Shown: positions 26,717 to 36,009 of the stretch, piece by piece | How positions within the stretch are numbered: the first letter of the stretch is position 1 | Layout: every line of letters starts with the position of its first letter | From: an uncultured Candidatus Pelagibacter sp. | GTDB lineage: Bacteria > Pseudomonadota > Alphaproteobacteria > Pelagibacterales > Pelagibacteraceae | DNA: 54,909 nucleotides | NCBI GenBank assembly: GCA_913030805.1 | Contig: CAJWDL010000007.1 | Coordinates: 1 to 54,909 of the forward strand | Direction of reading: 5' to 3' | Notes under the pieces: model-generated | What the model was told of the DNA's origin: nothing | Databases searched by the model: none | The model's input: the letters and a program-made list of their open reading frames with translations, nothing else | Position numbers and translations under genes: made by a program

Positions 26717-28303
26717 TTGAACAAAATATTTATAAATAAAAATTATATTTTTTTTTTTATTCCTTTTATTTTGGGTTTTTTAACTTCTTTCACTTTTTCA
26801 CCTTATAACCTAATTTTTATAAATTTTTTAACTTTTCCTGCCCTTCTATATCTTTTAAATGTTGGAAAAAAATTCAAATTAAATAATAAATATTTTTTTC
26901 TTATAGGATGGTTATTTGGTTTTGGTTATTTTTTGAGCGGTCTGTATTGGATTTCAATTTCTCTAACCTACGAAGAAATATTTAGATATTTAATTCCTTT
27001 TGCAGTTATTTTGGTTCCGGCTTTTCTGGCAATTTTTTATGGTATAGGTACATTAATACTAAAAAAATTTGTTTCTAAAAAAATAAGTTTTATTTTATTT
27101 TTTTCGCTACTTATCTCAATTTTAGAATTTATACGTGGAAATATATTAAGTGGTTTTCCATGGAATCTAATTGCATACAGCTGGTCATGGTCTTTAGAAA
27201 TAATCCAAGTCATTTCTATCATTGGAACTTATTCATTGAATTTAATATCTTTAACTATTTTTTCCTTACCTTTTATTTTATTTGTTAAAACAAAATATAA
27301 TAAAAAATATTTGTTTTTTTCTTTTTTCCTAATTCTTTTTGCTATTAATTATTTATATGGATTTAAAGTTTTGTCACAACCTAGAGAACAAAATATAGAG
27401 GAACATGATTTTGTAATAAAAATAATATCACCAAATATCGATTTAAAAGAATTTCTTAAAAGTGAAAATAATGACCTAATAATTAAAAAATTGATAGAAT
27501 TAAGCAATCCACAAGCTGACCAAAAAACCATCTTCATTTGGCCAGAAGGAATGTTTCCATCTATATATTTAAGTGAGATAAAAAAATATCATAAAATATT
27601 TTCTGAGGTATTTTCAAATTTACATTTAATTATTTTAGGAATTAATAATTTGGAATATCAAAATAATGTTGAAAATGTTTATAATTCTTTAGCGATCGTA
27701 GATAACAATTTAAATCTAATCAGCAGTTATAAAAAAAATAAACTTGTACCTTTTGGGGAATTTTTGCCAATGGAGAAATATTTTCAGAAAATAGGATTAA
27801 AAAAAATTACGCATGGATATAAATCCTTTTCCAAGGGCAAACAAAGAAATGTAATAAATATTAATAATAAATTTTATAATATTAAATTATTACCTCTAAT
27901 ATGTTATGAAATAATCTATCCAGGTAAAATTAATATTAAAAAGCAAAATGTAGATTTAATTACGAATATTTCAGAAGACGGTTGGTTTGGCAACTCAATA
28001 GGTCCCTATCAACATTTTAATAAGGCAATTTATAGGGCGATCGAAGAAGGCAATTATATTGCAAGGTCTGCCAATAATGGAATTTCAGCTTTTATAAATC
28101 CCAATGGAAGAATATTGCAAAAAATAAAACTTAATGACACAGGTACAATCGAAGCGAGTTTACCAAAGTATAAAAATAAAACAATTTTTTCAAAATATGG
28201 AAATAAAGTTTTTGCAATTATAATTATTTTATATATTTTGTTAATTTTTTACTTTAAAAAAGTTGAAAAAAATGAAGAAAAAAAATTATCTTTTTACAAG
28301 TGA
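26717..28303 (+). CDS. lnt: Apolipoprotein N-acyltransferase
   Basis: 528 residues, inner membrane. Five to seven hydrophobic segments fill the first 215 residues; the nitrilase-type catalytic domain follows with Glu in [10 protein letters not shown], Lys in [14 protein letters not shown] and Cys in [12 protein letters not shown]. It adds the third acyl chain to lipoproteins, such as those at 162-722, 14731-15321 and 49575-49691. The start is TTG at 26717 with no nearby ATG. The 3' end overlaps metK by 32 nt in another frame. Confidence 0.93.
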
Positions 28304-29435
28304 ATCTGTTTCCGAAGGTCATCCGGACAAAGTTTGCGATCGTATATCTGATATGGTTGTTGATACTTATTTAGCAAAAGAACCTTTTTCAAGAGTGGCG
28401 TGTGAAACTCTAACAACAACCAATAAAGTAGTTTTGGCAGGAGAGACAAGAGGACCAGAAATAAAAAAAGATGAGTTAACACAAAAAGTTAGAGAATGTA
28501 TTAAAGATATTGGATATGAGCAAAAAGGATTTCATTGGAAAAATTCTAATATTGAAATTTGTCTACATTCTCAATCATCAGACATTGCTATGGGAGTTGA
28601 TTCAAAAGGAAACAAAGATGAAGGAGCCGGAGATCAAGGTATAATGTTTGGTTATGCATGTAATGAAACAGAAAGTTTAATGCCAGCACCAATCTATTAT
28701 TCCCATAAAATATTAGAATTAATGGCAGCTGATAGAAAAAAAGGTATTGTAAATAAATTGGAACCAGATTCAAAAAGTCAAGTTACAATGATGTATGAAA
28801 ATGGAATGCCAACAAAAGTAAAATCAGTTGTAATTTCCACTCAACATTCTTCAGATGTTAATCAATCTCAGGTTAGGGAAATTGTTCGTCCGTATTTAGC
28901 AAAATCGTTCTCAAAGGAATTATTATCAGGATTAAAGGAAGAGGAATTTTATGTAAATCCTACAGGCCAATTTATTATTGGTGGACCCGATGGAGATTCA
29001 GGTTTAACAGGAAGAAAAATTATAGTTGATACTTACGGTGGAGCTGCTCCCCATGGTGGAGGAGCTTTTTCTGGAAAGGATCCAAGTAAAGTTGATAGAT
29101 CAGCTGCATATGCCGCAAGATATATTGCAAAAAATATTGTTGCTTCAAAAATTACTAATAAATGTTTAATTCAACTTGCATATGCTATTGGAGTATCTAA
29201 ACCTTTATCAATCTATGTTGATCTTTTTGATAAAGATGAAGAAAAAACTAAATATGTGGAAAATGTAATAAAAAATAATTTTGACTTGAGTCCAAGAGGT
29301 ATCAGGGAAATGTTAAGCCTAAATAAACCCATATATGAATGTACCGCAGCATATGGTCATTTTGGAAGAAAACCTGGGGCGAATGGTTCTTTTTCTTGGG
29401 AAAAAACTGATAAAAAAGATCTTTTTAGCAAGTAG
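28272..29435 (+). CDS. metK: S-adenosylmethionine synthetase
   Basis: 387 residues, making SAM from methionine and ATP. Motifs: [53 protein letters not shown] and [19 protein letters not shown]. The ATG at 28272 is chosen; a TTG at 28263 in frame is possible. It starts inside the lnt 3' end, so its translation is probably coupled. No SAM riboswitch fits upstream because no leader exists. Followed by a terminator at 29491. Confidence 0.97.
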
Positions 29436-29438
29436 AAC

Positions 29439-29466
29439 TTGAAAAATTAATTAAATTTTATATATT
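29439..29466 (+). promoter_or_regulatory. Candidate sigma70-type promoter of the nusA operon
   Basis: TTGAAA (29439-29444), 16 nt, TATATT (29461-29466). It lies in the metK-nusA gap and upstream of the hairpin at 29491-29510, so transcripts from it would begin near 29473 and carry that hairpin in the nusA leader. In sequence this AT-rich the match may be chance. Confidence 0.4.
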
Positions 29467-29490
29467 CACACTACATTGTTGAAATTTCAA

Positions 29491-29516
29491 AAATGGGCTT
29501 AGGCCCATTTTTTTTT
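29491..29516 (+). terminator. Intrinsic terminator between metK and nusA, possibly an attenuator
   Basis: Stem AAATGGGC (29491-29498), loop TTAG, stem GCCCATTT (29503-29510), with a T run to 29516. Clear intrinsic terminator geometry, 8-bp stem with a GC core. It can end metK transcription. Because a possible promoter lies upstream and nusA begins 13 nt downstream, it may instead attenuate nusA. Confidence 0.85.
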
Positions 29517-29529
29517 GGGAATAATAAAA

Positions 29530-31077
29530 ATGTTAAATCAAAGATCAGATAAACTTGAGCTTATTAGAATTGCAGAAGCAGTTGCTTTAGAAAAAGCCAT
29601 TGATAAAGATCTAATTTTATCATCAATGGAATCGGGAATAGAAAAAGCAGCGAAATCTAGATTTGGACTTGAAAATAATATCAAGGTTACAATTGATAGA
29701 TCAACTGGAAATATTGACATATATCGAGTGTTGATGGTTACTGAAAATCCTACTAATCATAATACTGAAATTTCATTAGCCGAGGCAAAAAAAATTAGTA
29801 AAAAAAACATAGGCAAAAAAGTTGGTGATGAAATATTAGAAACTCTTCCCACATTTGATTTTGGAAGAATTGCAGCACAAACGGCTAAACAGGTTATTAC
29901 TCAAAATGTTCGTGAGGCTGAAAGGGAAAGACAATATAATGATTTCAAAGATAAAAAAGATCAAATTTTAAGTGGAATTGTAAAAAGATTAGAATTTGGA
30001 AATGTAATAGTTGATCTTGGAAAAACCGAAGGAATAATCAGAAAAGATGAGATGATACCTAGAGAAAATATTAAAACGGGAGATAGGGTTAAGGCCTACT
30101 GTTATGATGTTAGAAGAGAAACTAGAGGACAACAAATTTTTTTGTCTAGAGGCAATCCAAAATTTATGGAAAAATTATTTTTACAAGAAGTTCCTGAAAT
30201 ATATGATGGTCTAATTGAGATAAAATCTTCAGCTAGAGATCCAGGGAGCAGAGCTAAAATTTGCGTAAATGCTAAAGATACCTCTCTAGATCCTGTTGGG
30301 GCATGCGTTGGTATGAGAGGAAGTAGAGTTCAGGCTGTTGTTAATGAATTACAAGGTGAAAAAATAGATATAGTACATTGGTCTGAGGATCCGTCTGTGT
30401 TAGTAGTTAATGCATTATCACCCGCAGAAATACAAAAAGTCATAATAGATAATAATTATAGAAAACTTGATGTAATTTTAGATGAGGAAAATTTAAGCAA
30501 AGCTATAGGACGTAAGGGGCAAAACGTAAGATTAGCATCAAAATTAATGGATTATGAAATAAATATTTTAACTGAAAAAGAAGAGTCAGAACGCAGACAA
30601 ATAGAATTTAAGGAAAAAACAGATAATTTGGTAAAAAATTTAGAACTTGATGAAACCTTGGGACAATTACTTGTTGCTGAGGGATATTCATCAATAGAAG
30701 ACATAGAACAAACCAGCGTTGATAAACTTACCAAGATTGAAGGAATAGATGAAAAAACAGCGAAAGAGCTAATTGATAGAGCTAAGGAATTTTTAAAAAA
30801 AGATGCTGAAGAAATATCAGAAAAAATTAAAGAATTAGGCGTAGCCGAAGATTTAATTAATCTTAAAGGTTTAACACAGGGTATGCTAGTGACACTAGGT
30901 GAGCAAAAAATATTAAACCTAAAAGATTTTGCCGAACTAGCTTCAGATGAACTTACCGGCGGTTATGATATTATCAAGAGTGAAAAAGTTAAAATTAAAG
31001 GTTATCTAGAGGATTTTGCTTTAACGAAAAAAGAAGCGGATGATTTAATAATGAGTGCAAGAAATATAGTTTATTAA
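29530..31077 (+). CDS. nusA: Transcription termination/antitermination factor NusA
   Basis: 515 residues from the ATG at 29530. The N-terminal RNA-polymerase-binding domain (1 to about 125) starts LNQRSDKLELIRIAEAVALEKAIDK; then an S1 domain (SGIVKRLEFGNVIVDLG), KH1 and KH2 (VGACVGMRGSRVQAVVNEL, KAIGRKGQNVRLASKL), and two C-terminal helix-hairpin-helix acidic repeats. It heads the nusA-infB-rbfA-rpsO-pnp operon. rimP, which normally precedes it, is not present here. The open frame extends to a TTG at 29515 inside the terminator T run, an unlikely start. Confidence 0.96.
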   Translation: MLNQRSDKLELIRIAEAVALEKAIDKDLILSSMESGIEKAAKSRFGLENNIKVTIDRSTGNIDIYRVLMVTENPTNHNTEISLAEAKKISKKNIGKKVGDEILETLPTFDFGRIAAQTAKQVITQNVREAERERQYNDFKDKKDQILSGIVKRLEFGNVIVDLGKTEGIIRKDEMIPRENIKTGDRVKAYCYDVRRETRGQQIFLSRGNPKFMEKLFLQEVPEIYDGLIEIKSSARDPGSRAKICVNAKDTSLDPVGACVGMRGSRVQAVVNELQGEKIDIVHWSEDPSVLVVNALSPAEIQKVIIDNNYRKLDVILDEENLSKAIGRKGQNVRLASKLMDYEINILTEKEESERRQIEFKEKTDNLVKNLELDETLGQLLVAEGYSSIEDIEQTSVDKLTKIEGIDEKTAKELIDRAKEFLKKDAEEISEKIKELGVAEDLINLKGLTQGMLVTLGEQKILNLKDFAELASDELTGGYDIIKSEKVKIKGYLEDFALTKKEADDLIMSARNIVY

Positions 31078-31086
31078 GTAATTATT

Positions 31087-33306
31087 ATGGAAAAGAAAAG
31101 TTTTAAGAAAAAATTGACTTTATCGGTATCAAGTTTAACTAAAAATAAATCTGATAAAATTAGATATGCAAAAAGCCAGAATGAAAATGCAGTAATAATT
31201 GAAAAAAAAAATATTAGAACAGGATTTATGAAAGTGAATCAACAATTTAGTAGAGATCAGATTAAATCCGGCACCAAAACTGGTAAAATTTTTAATAAAG
31301 ATTTAAATTTAATTAATAAAGATTTTGAAAAAAGAAAACTTGCAGAACAAAAAGCCACAAAAAGAGTTAAGGGACAAGCTGTTGCAGAAAAAGTAATCAA
31401 GGGTAAATCAATTGTTAAAAAAAGAGAGTACAAACTAACCCTTTCAAGAGCTTTAAATGAAGATAACCTTGGATTTAAATCTAGAAGCTTGGCATCTATT
31501 AAGAGAGCAAAAAGAAAAGAAAATATTGCAATCTCTAAAGATACATTACTGGAAAATGATAAACCTATAGTCAGAAATGTTAATGTACCAAAAGTAATAA
31601 CGATACAAAAATTAGCAAACAAAATGACCGAACAAGCCAGCAGTCTCATTAAACACCTTTTAAGCATGGGTGTAACAGCAACAATAAATCACTCAATTGA
31701 TGCAGACACGGCTGAGTACTTGATAAAAGAATTTGGACACAATCCTATAAGAGAAGAAAAAATTGATATAAAAATTGATAAAACTTCATTGTCACTTGAG
31801 GCAGATTTAAGAAAAAGAGCTCCAATCGTAACGGTAATGGGCCATGTAGATCATGGAAAAACATCTTTATTAGATGCAATTAGAGATACCGATGTTGTTT
31901 CTGGAGAACATGGTGGTATTACCCAGCATATAGGCGCATATCAAATAAATATGAATAATGAAAAAATTACGTTTATTGATACCCCGGGTCATGCCGCATT
32001 TACTGAAATGAGAGCAAGAGGATCAAAATTGACGGATATTGTAGTTTTAGTTGTTGCCGCAGATGATGGAGTTAAACCTCAAACTGTAGAAGCAATAAAG
32101 CATGCAAAAGCAGCAAAAGCACCTATTGTAGTTGCAATAACTAAGTGTGATTTATATGAGGCAAATTCACAAAATGTAAAAAATCAATTATTGGAGCATG
32201 AATTAATAGCTGAAGAACTTAGTGGAGATACTTTGTTTTCAGAAGTTTCTTCAAAAACAAAAAAAAATTTGGATAAAATTAAAGAAAATATTTTACTTCA
32301 ATCAGAATTGCTTGATTTAAAAGCAGATTATAAGAGCAAAGCTTCCGGAGTAATATTGGAATCAAAAATTGACGCAGGTAGAGGTCCAGTTTCTACAGTG
32401 ATTATAATTAATGGGACTTTAAAAAAAGGCGATTATTTTGTTAGTGGACCAACTTGGGGAAAAATTAGAGCCTTAATAAACGATAAAGGTATTACAATTG
32501 AACAGGCGACACCCTCTACTCCAGTAGAAATTCTAGGAATGAACGAGCCTGCTAAAGCGGGAGATGATTTTATTGTTGTAGAAAATGAAAATAAAGCAAA
32601 AGAGATAAACAGATATAGAAAAGAGAATTTACAATCAGAAAAAAACTCATTAGTTTTTGCTACACAAGATTCTGCCTTTAAAGATAATAAGATCAATGAA
32701 TTAAATATTATCATTAAATCAGATGTTCAAGGATCAAGCGAAGCAATTAAAACTGCTATTCTAAATATTAAGAATGAAGAAGTTTTACCAAAAATAATTC
32801 ATGCTGATATAGGACTAATAACCGAAACTGATGTTTTATTAGCAAGGGCATCAAATGCTGTTCTAGTTGCATTCAATGTAAGAGCAAGCAAAGAAGCAAA
32901 AAAAATGGCAGAACAAAATAAAATAGAGATAAAATATTTTAATATAATTTATGAAGTTTTAGATTTTATAAAATCTAAATTATCAGGAATGCTGAGGCCT
33001 AGTATTGAGGAACAGATAACTGGTTCAGCAGAAGTCATGGAAATATTTAAGGTTTCAAAATTTGGAAAAGTTGCTGGATCTAAAGTTATGGAGGGAGAAA
33101 TAGCCTTAAATTCAAATGCTAGATTAATAAGAGATGGCAATATAGTGTACACTGGAAAAATTAGCAGCATTTATAGAGAAAAAAACGCAGCAAAAGAAGT
33201 TGCTGCAGGATTGGAGTGCGGAATTATTTTGAAAGATTTTGCAGATTATAAAGAAAAAGATATTATTGAAGCATTTAGTGTAACAACATCTGAGAGAAAA
33301 ATTTAA
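31087..33306 (+). CDS. infB: Translation initiation factor IF-2
   Basis: 739 residues, short for the family because the N-terminal region is reduced to about 150 Lys-rich residues. GTPase motifs: VTVMGHVDHGKTSLLDAIR (G1), GGITQHIGAY (G2), FIDTPGHAAFTEMRARG (G3), and ITKCD as G4, where most bacteria have NKxD; the Thr variant is tolerated in GTPases. Domains II-IV follow. It is 10 nt after nusA, and the usual ylxR gene between them is missing. Confidence 0.97.
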   Translation: MEKKSFKKKLTLSVSSLTKNKSDKIRYAKSQNENAVIIEKKNIRTGFMKVNQQFSRDQIKSGTKTGKIFNKDLNLINKDFEKRKLAEQKATKRVKGQAVAEKVIKGKSIVKKREYKLTLSRALNEDNLGFKSRSLASIKRAKRKENIAISKDTLLENDKPIVRNVNVPKVITIQKLANKMTEQASSLIKHLLSMGVTATINHSIDADTAEYLIKEFGHNPIREEKIDIKIDKTSLSLEADLRKRAPIVTVMGHVDHGKTSLLDAIRDTDVVSGEHGGITQHIGAYQINMNNEKITFIDTPGHAAFTEMRARGSKLTDIVVLVVAADDGVKPQTVEAIKHAKAAKAPIVVAITKCDLYEANSQNVKNQLLEHELIAEELSGDTLFSEVSSKTKKNLDKIKENILLQSELLDLKADYKSKASGVILESKIDAGRGPVSTVIIINGTLKKGDYFVSGPTWGKIRALINDKGITIEQATPSTPVEILGMNEPAKAGDDFIVVENENKAKEINRYRKENLQSEKNSLVFATQDSAFKDNKINELNIIIKSDVQGSSEAIKTAILNIKNEEVLPKIIHADIGLITETDVLLARASNAVLVAFNVRASKEAKKMAEQNKIEIKYFNIIYEVLDFIKSKLSGMLRPSIEEQITGSAEVMEIFKVSKFGKVAGSKVMEGEIALNSNARLIRDGNIVYTGKISSIYREKNAAKEVAAGLECGIILKDFADYKEKDIIEAFSVTTSERKI

Positions 33307-33689
33307 TGAAAAGAAATAATAATAACCAATTTTCTCAAAGACAGTTAAGAGTCGGAGAAATGATTAAACAATCTTTGGGTCAAATATTTATAAGAGGGGA
33401 AGCTAAAGTACCAACCTTGGAAACAAATAATATTACCGTTACAGAAGTAAGAATGAGTCCGGATTTAAAAAGTGCCAGGGCTTATATTATGCCATTAGGA
33501 GGAAAAGACCTGGATAAGACAGTAGACTTGTTAACTGATTTCTCACATCTTGTTAGAAAGGCTTTAGCAAAAAAAATTCACATGAAATTTTTACCTAAAA
33601 TTTCATTTATAAGTGATAAATCTTTTGATTATGCAGAAAAGATAGAAAAATTAATAAAGGAATCGCGTAGATATAAATATGGAAAATAA
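33306..33689 (+). CDS. rbfA: Ribosome-binding factor A
   Basis: 127-residue KH-fold protein needed for 30S maturation and 16S 5' processing. FSQRQLRVGEMIKQSLGQIF at the N-terminus, ITVTEVRMSPDLKSARAYIMPLGG and MKFLPKISFISDKSFDYAEKI are the family blocks. The stop of infB and the start of rbfA overlap as TAATG. The 3' end overlaps rpsO by 11 nt; truB, usually next, is missing. Confidence 0.95.
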   Translation: MKRNNNNQFSQRQLRVGEMIKQSLGQIFIRGEAKVPTLETNNITVTEVRMSPDLKSARAYIMPLGGKDLDKTVDLLTDFSHLVRKALAKKIHMKFLPKISFISDKSFDYAEKIEKLIKESRRYKYGK

Positions 33690-33939
33690 TAAGAAAAGTG
33701 TGATTAATTCACTAGCAATAAATGAAAAGGATACGGGATCATCGGAAATCCAAATTGGATTATTAACGCAGAAAATAGACAAACTTTCAAAGCATTTTAA
33801 AAAATCTAAAAAAGATAAGCATTCAGCTCTTGGTTTACTAAAAGCTATAAATAGAAGAAAAAGATTACTTGAATACTTAAAGAATCATAATGTTGATTCT
33901 TATAACAATATATTAGGCAAATTAAATTTAAGGAAATAA
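33679..33939 (+). CDS. rpsO: 30S ribosomal protein S15
   Basis: 86 residues. DTGSSEIQIGLLTQKIDKLSKHFK, KDKHSALGLLKAINRRKRLLEYLK and YNNILGKLNLRK are characteristic of S15, a primary 16S-binding protein of the platform. Sits between rbfA (overlap 11 nt) and pnp (no spacer), the common bacterial rpsO-pnp pair. Confidence 0.97.
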   Translation: MENNKKSVINSLAINEKDTGSSEIQIGLLTQKIDKLSKHFKKSKKDKHSALGLLKAINRRKRLLEYLKNHNVDSYNNILGKLNLRK

Positions 33940-36009
33940 ATGTTTAAAATTTACAAAGAAGAAATCGAATTAGATGGTAAAAAAATTATACTAGAAACAG
34001 GCAGGATAGCGCGCCAAGCTGACGGAGCTGTAATTGCTACTTGTGGCGAAACCGTTGTTATTTCAACAGTAGTTGGTGCAAAAAAAGTTAATCCTGACAC
34101 AGATTATTTTCCACTGCAGGTTAATTATCAAGAAAAATACTATGCAGCCGGAAAAATACCAGGAGGCTATTTTAAAAGAGAAGCAAGGCCAACCGAATCT
34201 GAAACTTTAATTTCAAGATTAATTGATAGACCTATTCGTCCATTATTTCCAGAAGGTTTTAGAAATGAGGTACAAGTTTTACCTACAGTATTGTCTTATG
34301 ATAAAGAAAATGAAACGGACATATTATCGATAATAGCATCATCAGCTGCTTTAGCGATATCAGGTTTGCCCTTTCAAGAACCTATAGCAGCTTCAAGAGT
34401 AGGCTATATAAAAAATGAATATGTTTTGAACCCATCAAAAGATCAATTAAAAGAATCAAAATTAGACCTAGTTGTGGCAGGAACAAAAGATGCTGTTTTG
34501 ATGGTTGAATCTGAAACATCAGGCCTAACGGAGAAACAAATGTTAGATGCAGTTAAATTTGGGCATGAAAAATTTATTCCAGCAATAAAAGCAATAGAAT
34601 CGCTTGCTAAAAAATGCGCAAAGGAAGCATGGATAGTAGAAAAAAAAGATTATACTAGTTTACAAGATAAGATTTCAAAAGAATTAACAAAAGATTTAGA
34701 AAAAGCTTTTTCCGAAAAAGATAAGAAAAGAAGGTCTGAACTTATTAGTTTAGCAACCAAAAAATGTAAGTCTTTATTTGAAGGAGATGAAACTTATTCA
34801 GAATTAGAAATATCCTTGCAGTTAAAAAATTTAGAAAAAAGCATAGTAAGGGGACAGGTGCTTAAAACCAAAAAAAGAATTGACGGCAGAGGTTTGTCCG
34901 ATGTTAGGCCTATAAAATGTGAAGTTGGCGTTTTGCCAAGAACTCATGGATCTGCTTTATTTACTAGAGGAGAAACACAAGCGTTAGTTACTACAACTTT
35001 AGGAACATCGGATGATGAACAAAGAATAGAAAGTCTTGAAGGACAAAAAAGAGTAAGCTTTATGTTACACTATAATTTTCCACCTTTTTCAGTTGGTGAA
35101 ACAGGTAGGATAGGAACAGGAAGAAGAGAAGTGGGGCATGGAAAACTAGCTTGGAGAGCTTTAAAATCTTCATTACCCGAGAACGAAAAGTTTCCCTACA
35201 CTATAAGAATAGTATCAGAAATAACCGAATCAAATGGATCTTCATCAATGGCAACGGTTTGTGGAGCTTCTTTAGCTCTCATGGATGCTGCCGTTCCTAT
35301 AGCTGATCCAGTTGCTGGAATAGCAATGGGTTTAATAAAAGAAAAAGATGAATTTTTAGTGTTGTCGGATATTTTAGGAGATGAAGATCATTTAGGTGAT
35401 ATGGATTTTAAAGTTGCAGGCACAAAAGATGGCATTACCTCGCTACAAATGGATATAAAAATTACTGGAATTACCTTTGAAATTATGGAGCAAGCATTAA
35501 ATCAAGCAAAAGAAGGTAGGGCACATATTTTGCAAGAGATGAACAAAACTATCAAATCATCAAGGAAGGAAGTTTCTAAACATACCCCAAAAATCGAAAC
35601 TGTTATGGTTGATAAAAAAGATATAGCTGCCGTTATAGGCAAAGGTGGAGCTACAATTAGAGAAATTGTTGAACTATCTGGTGCTAAAGTAGATGTTAAG
35701 GATACAGGTGAAGTTACAATTGCCGCACCAGATGTAGAATCAAGAAATAAAGCAATGGAAATGGTAAAAAACATAGTTGCAAAACCTGAGATGGGTAAAG
35801 TTTATAAAGGCAAAGTTATAAAAATTATGGAATTTGGAGCATTTGTTAATTTTTTGGGGAAACAAGATGGTCTTGTGCATATCTCTCAACTAGCGTCTAA
35901 ACGAGTTAAAAAAGTAAAGGATGTAGTAAAAGAAGGTGATGAAGTTTCAGTCAAAGTTATTGGGTTTGATAGAGGAAAAATTAAACTTTCAATGAAAGAA
36001 GCCGTCTAG
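33940..36009 (+). CDS. pnp: Polyribonucleotide nucleotidyltransferase (PNPase)
   Basis: 689-residue 3'-5' phosphorolytic exoribonuclease. First RNase PH domain at about 10-145, an all-helical linker, a second RNase PH domain ([49 protein letters not shown]), then KH ([15 protein letters not shown]) and S1 ([27 protein letters not shown]). Starts immediately after the rpsO stop. Convergent with fabI, 2 nt away, with no visible terminator between them. Confidence 0.97.

Follow-up and report, generated by a model that had tools for sequence, protein, structure and literature searches.

The nusA locus and its leader

The window, meaning the whole 54,909-nt stretch of DNA analysed here, is contig 7 in a draft genome of 33 contigs from an uncultured Candidatus Pelagibacter sp., a member of SAR11 (Pelagibacterales) whose named relatives belong to the Pelagibacteraceae. 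Downstream of metK lie nusA, infB, rbfA, rpsO and pnp, and the spacer ahead of nusA carries a promoter-like pair of boxes and a hairpin with a T-run (Table 1). A sequence-only reading of this DNA had described the boxes as TTGAAA-16-TATATT and the hairpin with its T-run as lying 13 nt before nusA. Every one of these elements was found where it had been placed, and the stem consists of ten perfect base pairs. Domain profile searches indicated that the NusA of the window retains its N-terminal, S1 and KH domains. Of 111 records, 78 have an SD-like core in this spacer.

Two tRNA-modification genes beside the operon vary among the relatives. Among 41 Pelagibacterales, TruB_N is present in 20 and a strong TrmB match (E below 1e-12) in 21; apart from G023 these are the same genomes. 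Both are absent from the draft genome of the window and from the single-contig relatives G007 and G020. The sites concerned in the window are the rbfA/rpsO junction (33679-33689) and the metK-nusA spacer (29436-29529). The two genes may have been lost together.

Table 1. Features of the metK-nusA region, in coordinates of the window
Feature	Position	Strand	Basis and remarks
metK, upstream neighbour	28272-29435	+	TIGR01034, 479 bits (translation of bases 28293-29432); start codon from sequence reading
TTGAAA, -35-like	29439-29444	+	Sequence; TTGAA 94-100% conserved in 85 unique rows
TATATT, -10-like	29461-29466	+	Sequence; 91-99% conserved in 85 unique rows; 16-nt spacer from TTGAAA
Putative transcription start (A, 7 nt past the -10)	29473	+	96% conserved; from sequence and conservation
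Imperfect dyad CATTGTTGAAA/TTTCAAAAATG, weak candidate alternative hairpin	29474-29495	+	Overlaps 5' arm of terminator
Terminator-like hairpin (GGGC-TTAG-GCCC core) with T9, predicted rimP-leader-type nusA attenuator	29489-29516	+	
Stem arms AAAAATGGGC / GCCCATTTTT, loop TTAG	29489-29498 / 29503-29512	+	Inverted repeat, 100% complementary
T-run of nine	29508-29516	+	nusA ATG at 29530, 13 nt downstream
GGGA, weak ribosome-binding-like sequence	29517-29520	+	Abuts T-run
nusA	29530-31077	+	TIGR01953, 391 bits; NusA_N, S1, KH_5 and HHH_5 above cut-offs
infB	31087-33306	+	TIGR00487, 706.8 bits
rbfA	33306-33689	+	TIGR00082, 67.4 bits
rpsO	33679-33939	+	TIGR00952, 103.4 bits
pnp	33940-36009	+	TIGR03591, 1035 bits

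Taken by itself, the hairpin folds at −13.4 kcal/mol (z −2.34), and 3 of 200 shuffled sequences did equally well. The complete 94-nt metK-nusA spacer is less striking, with a z of −1.76 and 13 of 200 shuffles equally good. A generic terminator scan of 16 kb returned 7 sites against 7.3 expected and did not list the nusA hairpin, in our opinion because half of the T-run is taken up in pairing with the A-tract. Under a strict definition (hairpin plus T7) terminators are rare in the two relatives sampled, with 3 per 300 kb in G007 and 5 in G020, all on one strand. Near 141244 of the joined G007 stretch (L148-L162), one such strict terminator follows a Lys/Arg-rich coding end, and an identical stem-loop is found in G020 (L163-L177).

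Conservation of the hairpin and promoter in Pelagibacterales

Both elements named in the sequence-only reading are conserved in relatives. Of 148 genomes sampled from the order, 139 include the nusA start and could be judged, and the hairpin stands before nusA in every one of them. A covariance model identified 118, to which direct reading added 5 family-1 variants and 16 genomes of family 2. Outside the 139 stand two genomes in which the nusA start is missing (G112 and G202) and seven without a nusA match. Owing to its different loop, family 2 is shifted by one column in alignment A1; the covariance model was therefore built from 33 family-1 rows only, and it does not find family 2. Every one of the 118 model matches falls on the strand of nusA, 8-24 nt ahead of it. 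No genome has more than one match at E ≤ 0.001, a first-look result obtained with 48 candidates scored per genome under strict filters. Additionally, across 600 kb from two relatives the strong model matches are the two nusA sites only.

At each of the 109 distinct places that cover the nusA start (L003 does not and was dropped), a GGG..CCC hairpin with a long T-run comes immediately before nusA, at 8-24 nt from its ATG. The 111 records include the window's own site three times. Among the 41 Pelagibacterales genomes, any that lacked a nusA match were left out, as were the fragments in G002 and G017. Loci L032-L111 may overlap with the G genomes, so these counts are not independent of those of the order sample and are not to be added to them.

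With nine places fetched later, GGG..CCC is found in 118 of 118 places, and the T-run is exactly nine in 117 and ten in the remaining one. Because T-runs of other lengths, from 6 upward, are common in the two sampled relatives, a length of nine is probably held by selection. The RNA-DNA hybrid held within the polymerase is of roughly this length.

The stem differs between the two families. The inner C-G pair occurs in all 102 family-1 places and in none of the 16 family-2 places, which have T-G (11), T-A (3), A-G (1) or A-T (1). Another pair is changed on both sides, being A-U in 96 of 97 main family-1 places and G-C in 16 of 16 family-2 places, and the family-2 stems at nusA are of the GTGGG..CCC type (16 genomes). 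Within family 1, no double changes occur in the stem among 54 rows and covariation is silent there. Five family-1 variant places have lost the pair beneath the core but keep GGGC/GCCC, suggesting that this sequence itself matters and is recognised. An upstream ORF beginning at an ATG within the family-1 stem was rejected on reading; family 2 mostly has GTG GGT TAA at that position.

In one genome the promoter pair is not above chance, as 76 promoter-like sites were found in this A+T-rich DNA against 81.4 expected; among the sites listed, 13 score at least 10 of 12, including TTGAAA-16-TATATT. It counts as above chance because it is conserved in relatives. In 85 unique metK-nusA spacer rows the conserved blocks are TTGAA, TATATT, ACATT past the presumed start, and the hairpin. 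The two-box pattern fits 84 of 92 spacers, and the other 8 have TTGAAAA with no second box at that spacing. Inspection by eye of 16 family-2 sequences found TTGATT in all 16 and TGTATA in 15. Four loci (L007, L009, L010 and L012) have AAGTTACCTGG in place of ACATT.TTGAA in the leader upstream of the hairpin. Between the T-run and the ATG we saw no promoter on reading, and the 8-24 nt there leave no room for a separate one. The sole other promoter-like site listed near the hairpin, TTCACA-18-AAAAAT, scores 9 of 12. A literature search for SAR11 start-site and 3'-end data gave nothing on the point by title and abstract.

Relation of the hairpin to metK and rimP

In 92 of 109 places metK is immediately upstream, and the hairpin should there also end metK transcripts. 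In 16 loci, from family 2 and some family-1 genera, 683-851 nt separate metK from nusA, and the hairpin remains at nusA. The intervening gene is TrmB (PF02390) in the three loci tested, and all 21 strong TrmB matches lie less than 200 nt upstream of nusA. Since the hairpin accompanies nusA, and not metK, when trmB comes between the two genes, it is, as judged from gene order, not simply a metK terminator.

The sequence-only reading had raised the alternative of a plain metK terminator with nusA read from another start; readthrough would be a further route to nusA. One part of this stands: since metK transcripts should end at the hairpin wherever metK adjoins, the terminator and attenuator readings are mutually compatible in those genomes. 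Another start could be sought in TTCACA-18-AAAAAT, a weak pair whose transcripts would begin within the hairpin itself. As a full account we consider this alternative to have hardly any chance, given that the hairpin keeps to nusA past trmB, that a conserved promoter lies between metK and the hairpin, that the T-run ends just 8-24 nt from the ATG, and that other members of the class carry a terminator of this type ahead of rimP-nusA.

At 30 of 30 loci examined in other Alphaproteobacteria, the gene after rimP is nusA. RimP was found in 51 of the 57 genomes of a class sample that includes the window's own genome, while a profile search (PF02576) detected it in 0 of 41 Pelagibacterales and in 0 of the 23 that are at least 90% complete. 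Literature on RimP loss in SAR11 was searched for, with nothing on the point by title and abstract. We screened the other Alphaproteobacteria with a hairpin detector because the covariance model matched them poorly, giving 5 weak matches (E 0.12-0.79) in 35 loci. Of 50 class loci, 30 have a GGG..CCC terminator ahead of rimP, against a mean of 0.25 and a maximum of 1 in 20 shuffles. The 50 represent the 51 rimP-bearing class genomes with G084 left out; 20 of them have no strict hairpin, and three of the 50 (L132, L205 and L207) end at a contig end. The base pair adjoining GGG in these orders is usually T-A, T-G or C-G (28 of 30). Between rimP and nusA, such a terminator was found in 0 of 30 loci.

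Thirty such leaders before rimP recall the rimP-leader, a short predicted attenuator with a conserved GGGc..gCCC stem and no larger sensor that lies before rimP-nusA-infB (Naville & Gautheret 2010, PMC2965389). That report calls it the most ubiquitous transcription attenuator of its survey. On the description given there, the SAR11 leader shares the GGG..CCC stem, the U-stretch, the nearness to the first gene and the nusA-infB operon. The published form shows no clear antiterminator; in SAR11 a weak dyad occurs in part of family 1. It differs in that rimP is missing, the hairpin abuts nusA, the base of the stem is A/T and the T-run is nearly always nine. The general form has the terminator 4-130 nt before the first operon gene; in SAR11 it lies 8-24 nt before nusA. 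Thus, on sequence, the SAR11 leader is a variant of this known attenuator type, and not a plain member, since its first gene is not rimP.

Rfam models describe the hairpin less well. At the gathering score no match was obtained in the window, and hence no known riboswitch or RNA family; at a permissive threshold there were 25 matches, every one below its cut-off, including rimP and L20 leader models. RF01770, the gammaproteobacterial rimP leader, has a 3' hairpin (UGGGC..GCCC with a U-tract) that aligns to the window hairpin, at 18.1 bits against a cut-off of 47 and with the upstream hairpin of the model falling on bases that are unpaired here. This match is not specific: RF01770 reaches 17.9 bits on the opposite strand, and at this site the L20 leader model does better, with 21.1 bits. 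The comparative evidence in Alphaproteobacteria links the hairpin to the rimP-leader more strongly than the RF01770 score does.

The simplest history would be that SAR11 lost rimP and retained the leader, which now adjoins nusA. Among five rimP-less genomes of other families, the leader was found before nusA in G065 only and in none of the other four. G065 (L146), a single-contig genome in which RimP was not detected, carries GGTGGG-TTAT-CCCGCC with nine T ahead of nusA, and is a possible second case of a leader retained without rimP.

Candidate mechanism of the nusA leader

The suggestion that the nusA leader holds an attenuator is thus supported, though not proven: promoter and hairpin are conserved together before nusA, and the stem matches the rimP-leader. 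We infer the start site, termination in vivo and the role of NusA as effector from the sequence. RNA polymerase would start at the conserved promoter, at about 29473, and within some 42 nt would meet an intrinsic terminator made of the GGGC-loop-GCCC stem and nine U. A fraction of polymerases, perhaps most, would stop there, and those reading through would transcribe nusA-infB-rbfA-rpsO-pnp. Bound to the polymerase and to the emerging hairpin, NusA would make termination more frequent, such that high NusA turns its own operon down and low NusA releases it. An antiterminator would not be required.

NusA was judged the best candidate for the rimP-leader when both RimP and NusA were considered (PMC2965389). 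The leader persists in SAR11 where RimP is not detected, which disfavours RimP as effector. The nusA leader of B. subtilis also carries an intrinsic terminator, in its case with NusA feedback through stimulated termination (Mondal 2016, as reviewed in PMC12288461); in SAR11 the terminator is recognised from sequence and its dependence on NusA is a prediction. Additionally, E. coli NusA is reported to repress its own nusA-infB operon (Plumbridge 1985 and Nakamura 1985, as cited in PMC2965389), a parallel to the self-control proposed here. The main text of two Pelagibacter RNA surveys contains no occurrence of nusA (PMC2704228, PMC6429828).

Because RimP is undetected and the B. subtilis leader is NusA-stimulated, we favour NusA feedback, and NusA self-control appears to be the best-supported reading on sequence and analogy. 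A rimP-leader-type transcription attenuator directly before nusA, with feedback by NusA, is in our judgement a reasonably probable account. More tentatively, and with some doubt, we suggest that the effector is not RimP but probably NusA reading GGGC/GCCC itself, and that in SAR11, whose strict hairpin terminators seem to be very few, the leader would be the main set-point for NusA, IF2, RbfA, S15 and PNPase.

A real premature terminator could also set the level of the operon by constant readthrough, with no feedback from NusA. The stem is fairly strong, at a mean of −11.6 kcal/mol when the A/U tract is included and −8.3 for the core alone; together with the U9 this would suit such a fixed ratio, as would the finding that no leader sequence upstream of the hairpin is common to all lineages. 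Indeed, because the stem and U9 look canonical and not weak, a strong dependence on NusA is not obvious. The reported control in B. subtilis and the five variants that keep GGGC/GCCC without the pair below point the other way, and we regard a fixed ratio as rather unlikely.

The dyad CATT.TTGA..TCAA.AATG, which overlaps the 5' arm of the terminator, could form an antiterminator in a two-state switch answering another signal. We examined it in 54 rows that share one leader type, selected out of 80 distinct metK-adjacent rows. In these, 92% of cells pair, dropping to 37-67% when the partner is slid by 1-3 columns, and in the window the dyad folds at −4.1 kcal/mol. Against this, shuffling also gives 92%, no double changes occur, the dyad reaches −3 kcal/mol or lower in just 51 of 92, and several genera and family 2 have different leader sequences. 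With no covariation in the 54 family-1 rows, this is a weak dyad in part of family 1 only, and a switch of this kind seems very unlikely.

Lastly, the hairpin may not terminate transcription, and could instead protect or process the 5' end of the mRNA, or the short terminated RNA could work in trans. The hairpin does sit in the 5' UTR, and a discrete RNA of ~42 nt is predicted. The near-fixed tract of nine T is what would be expected of a terminator and not of a stability element, and we likewise give such a role little credence.

Under the favoured reading of NusA feedback, the SAR11 leader would represent a minimal version of the rimP-leader, with one hairpin in about 42 nt. An order that keeps the leader without detectable RimP amounts to a natural experiment, one that favours NusA as the effector. 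If this is true, SAR11 bacteria, with their small genomes, retain feedback control over the core of transcription and translation.
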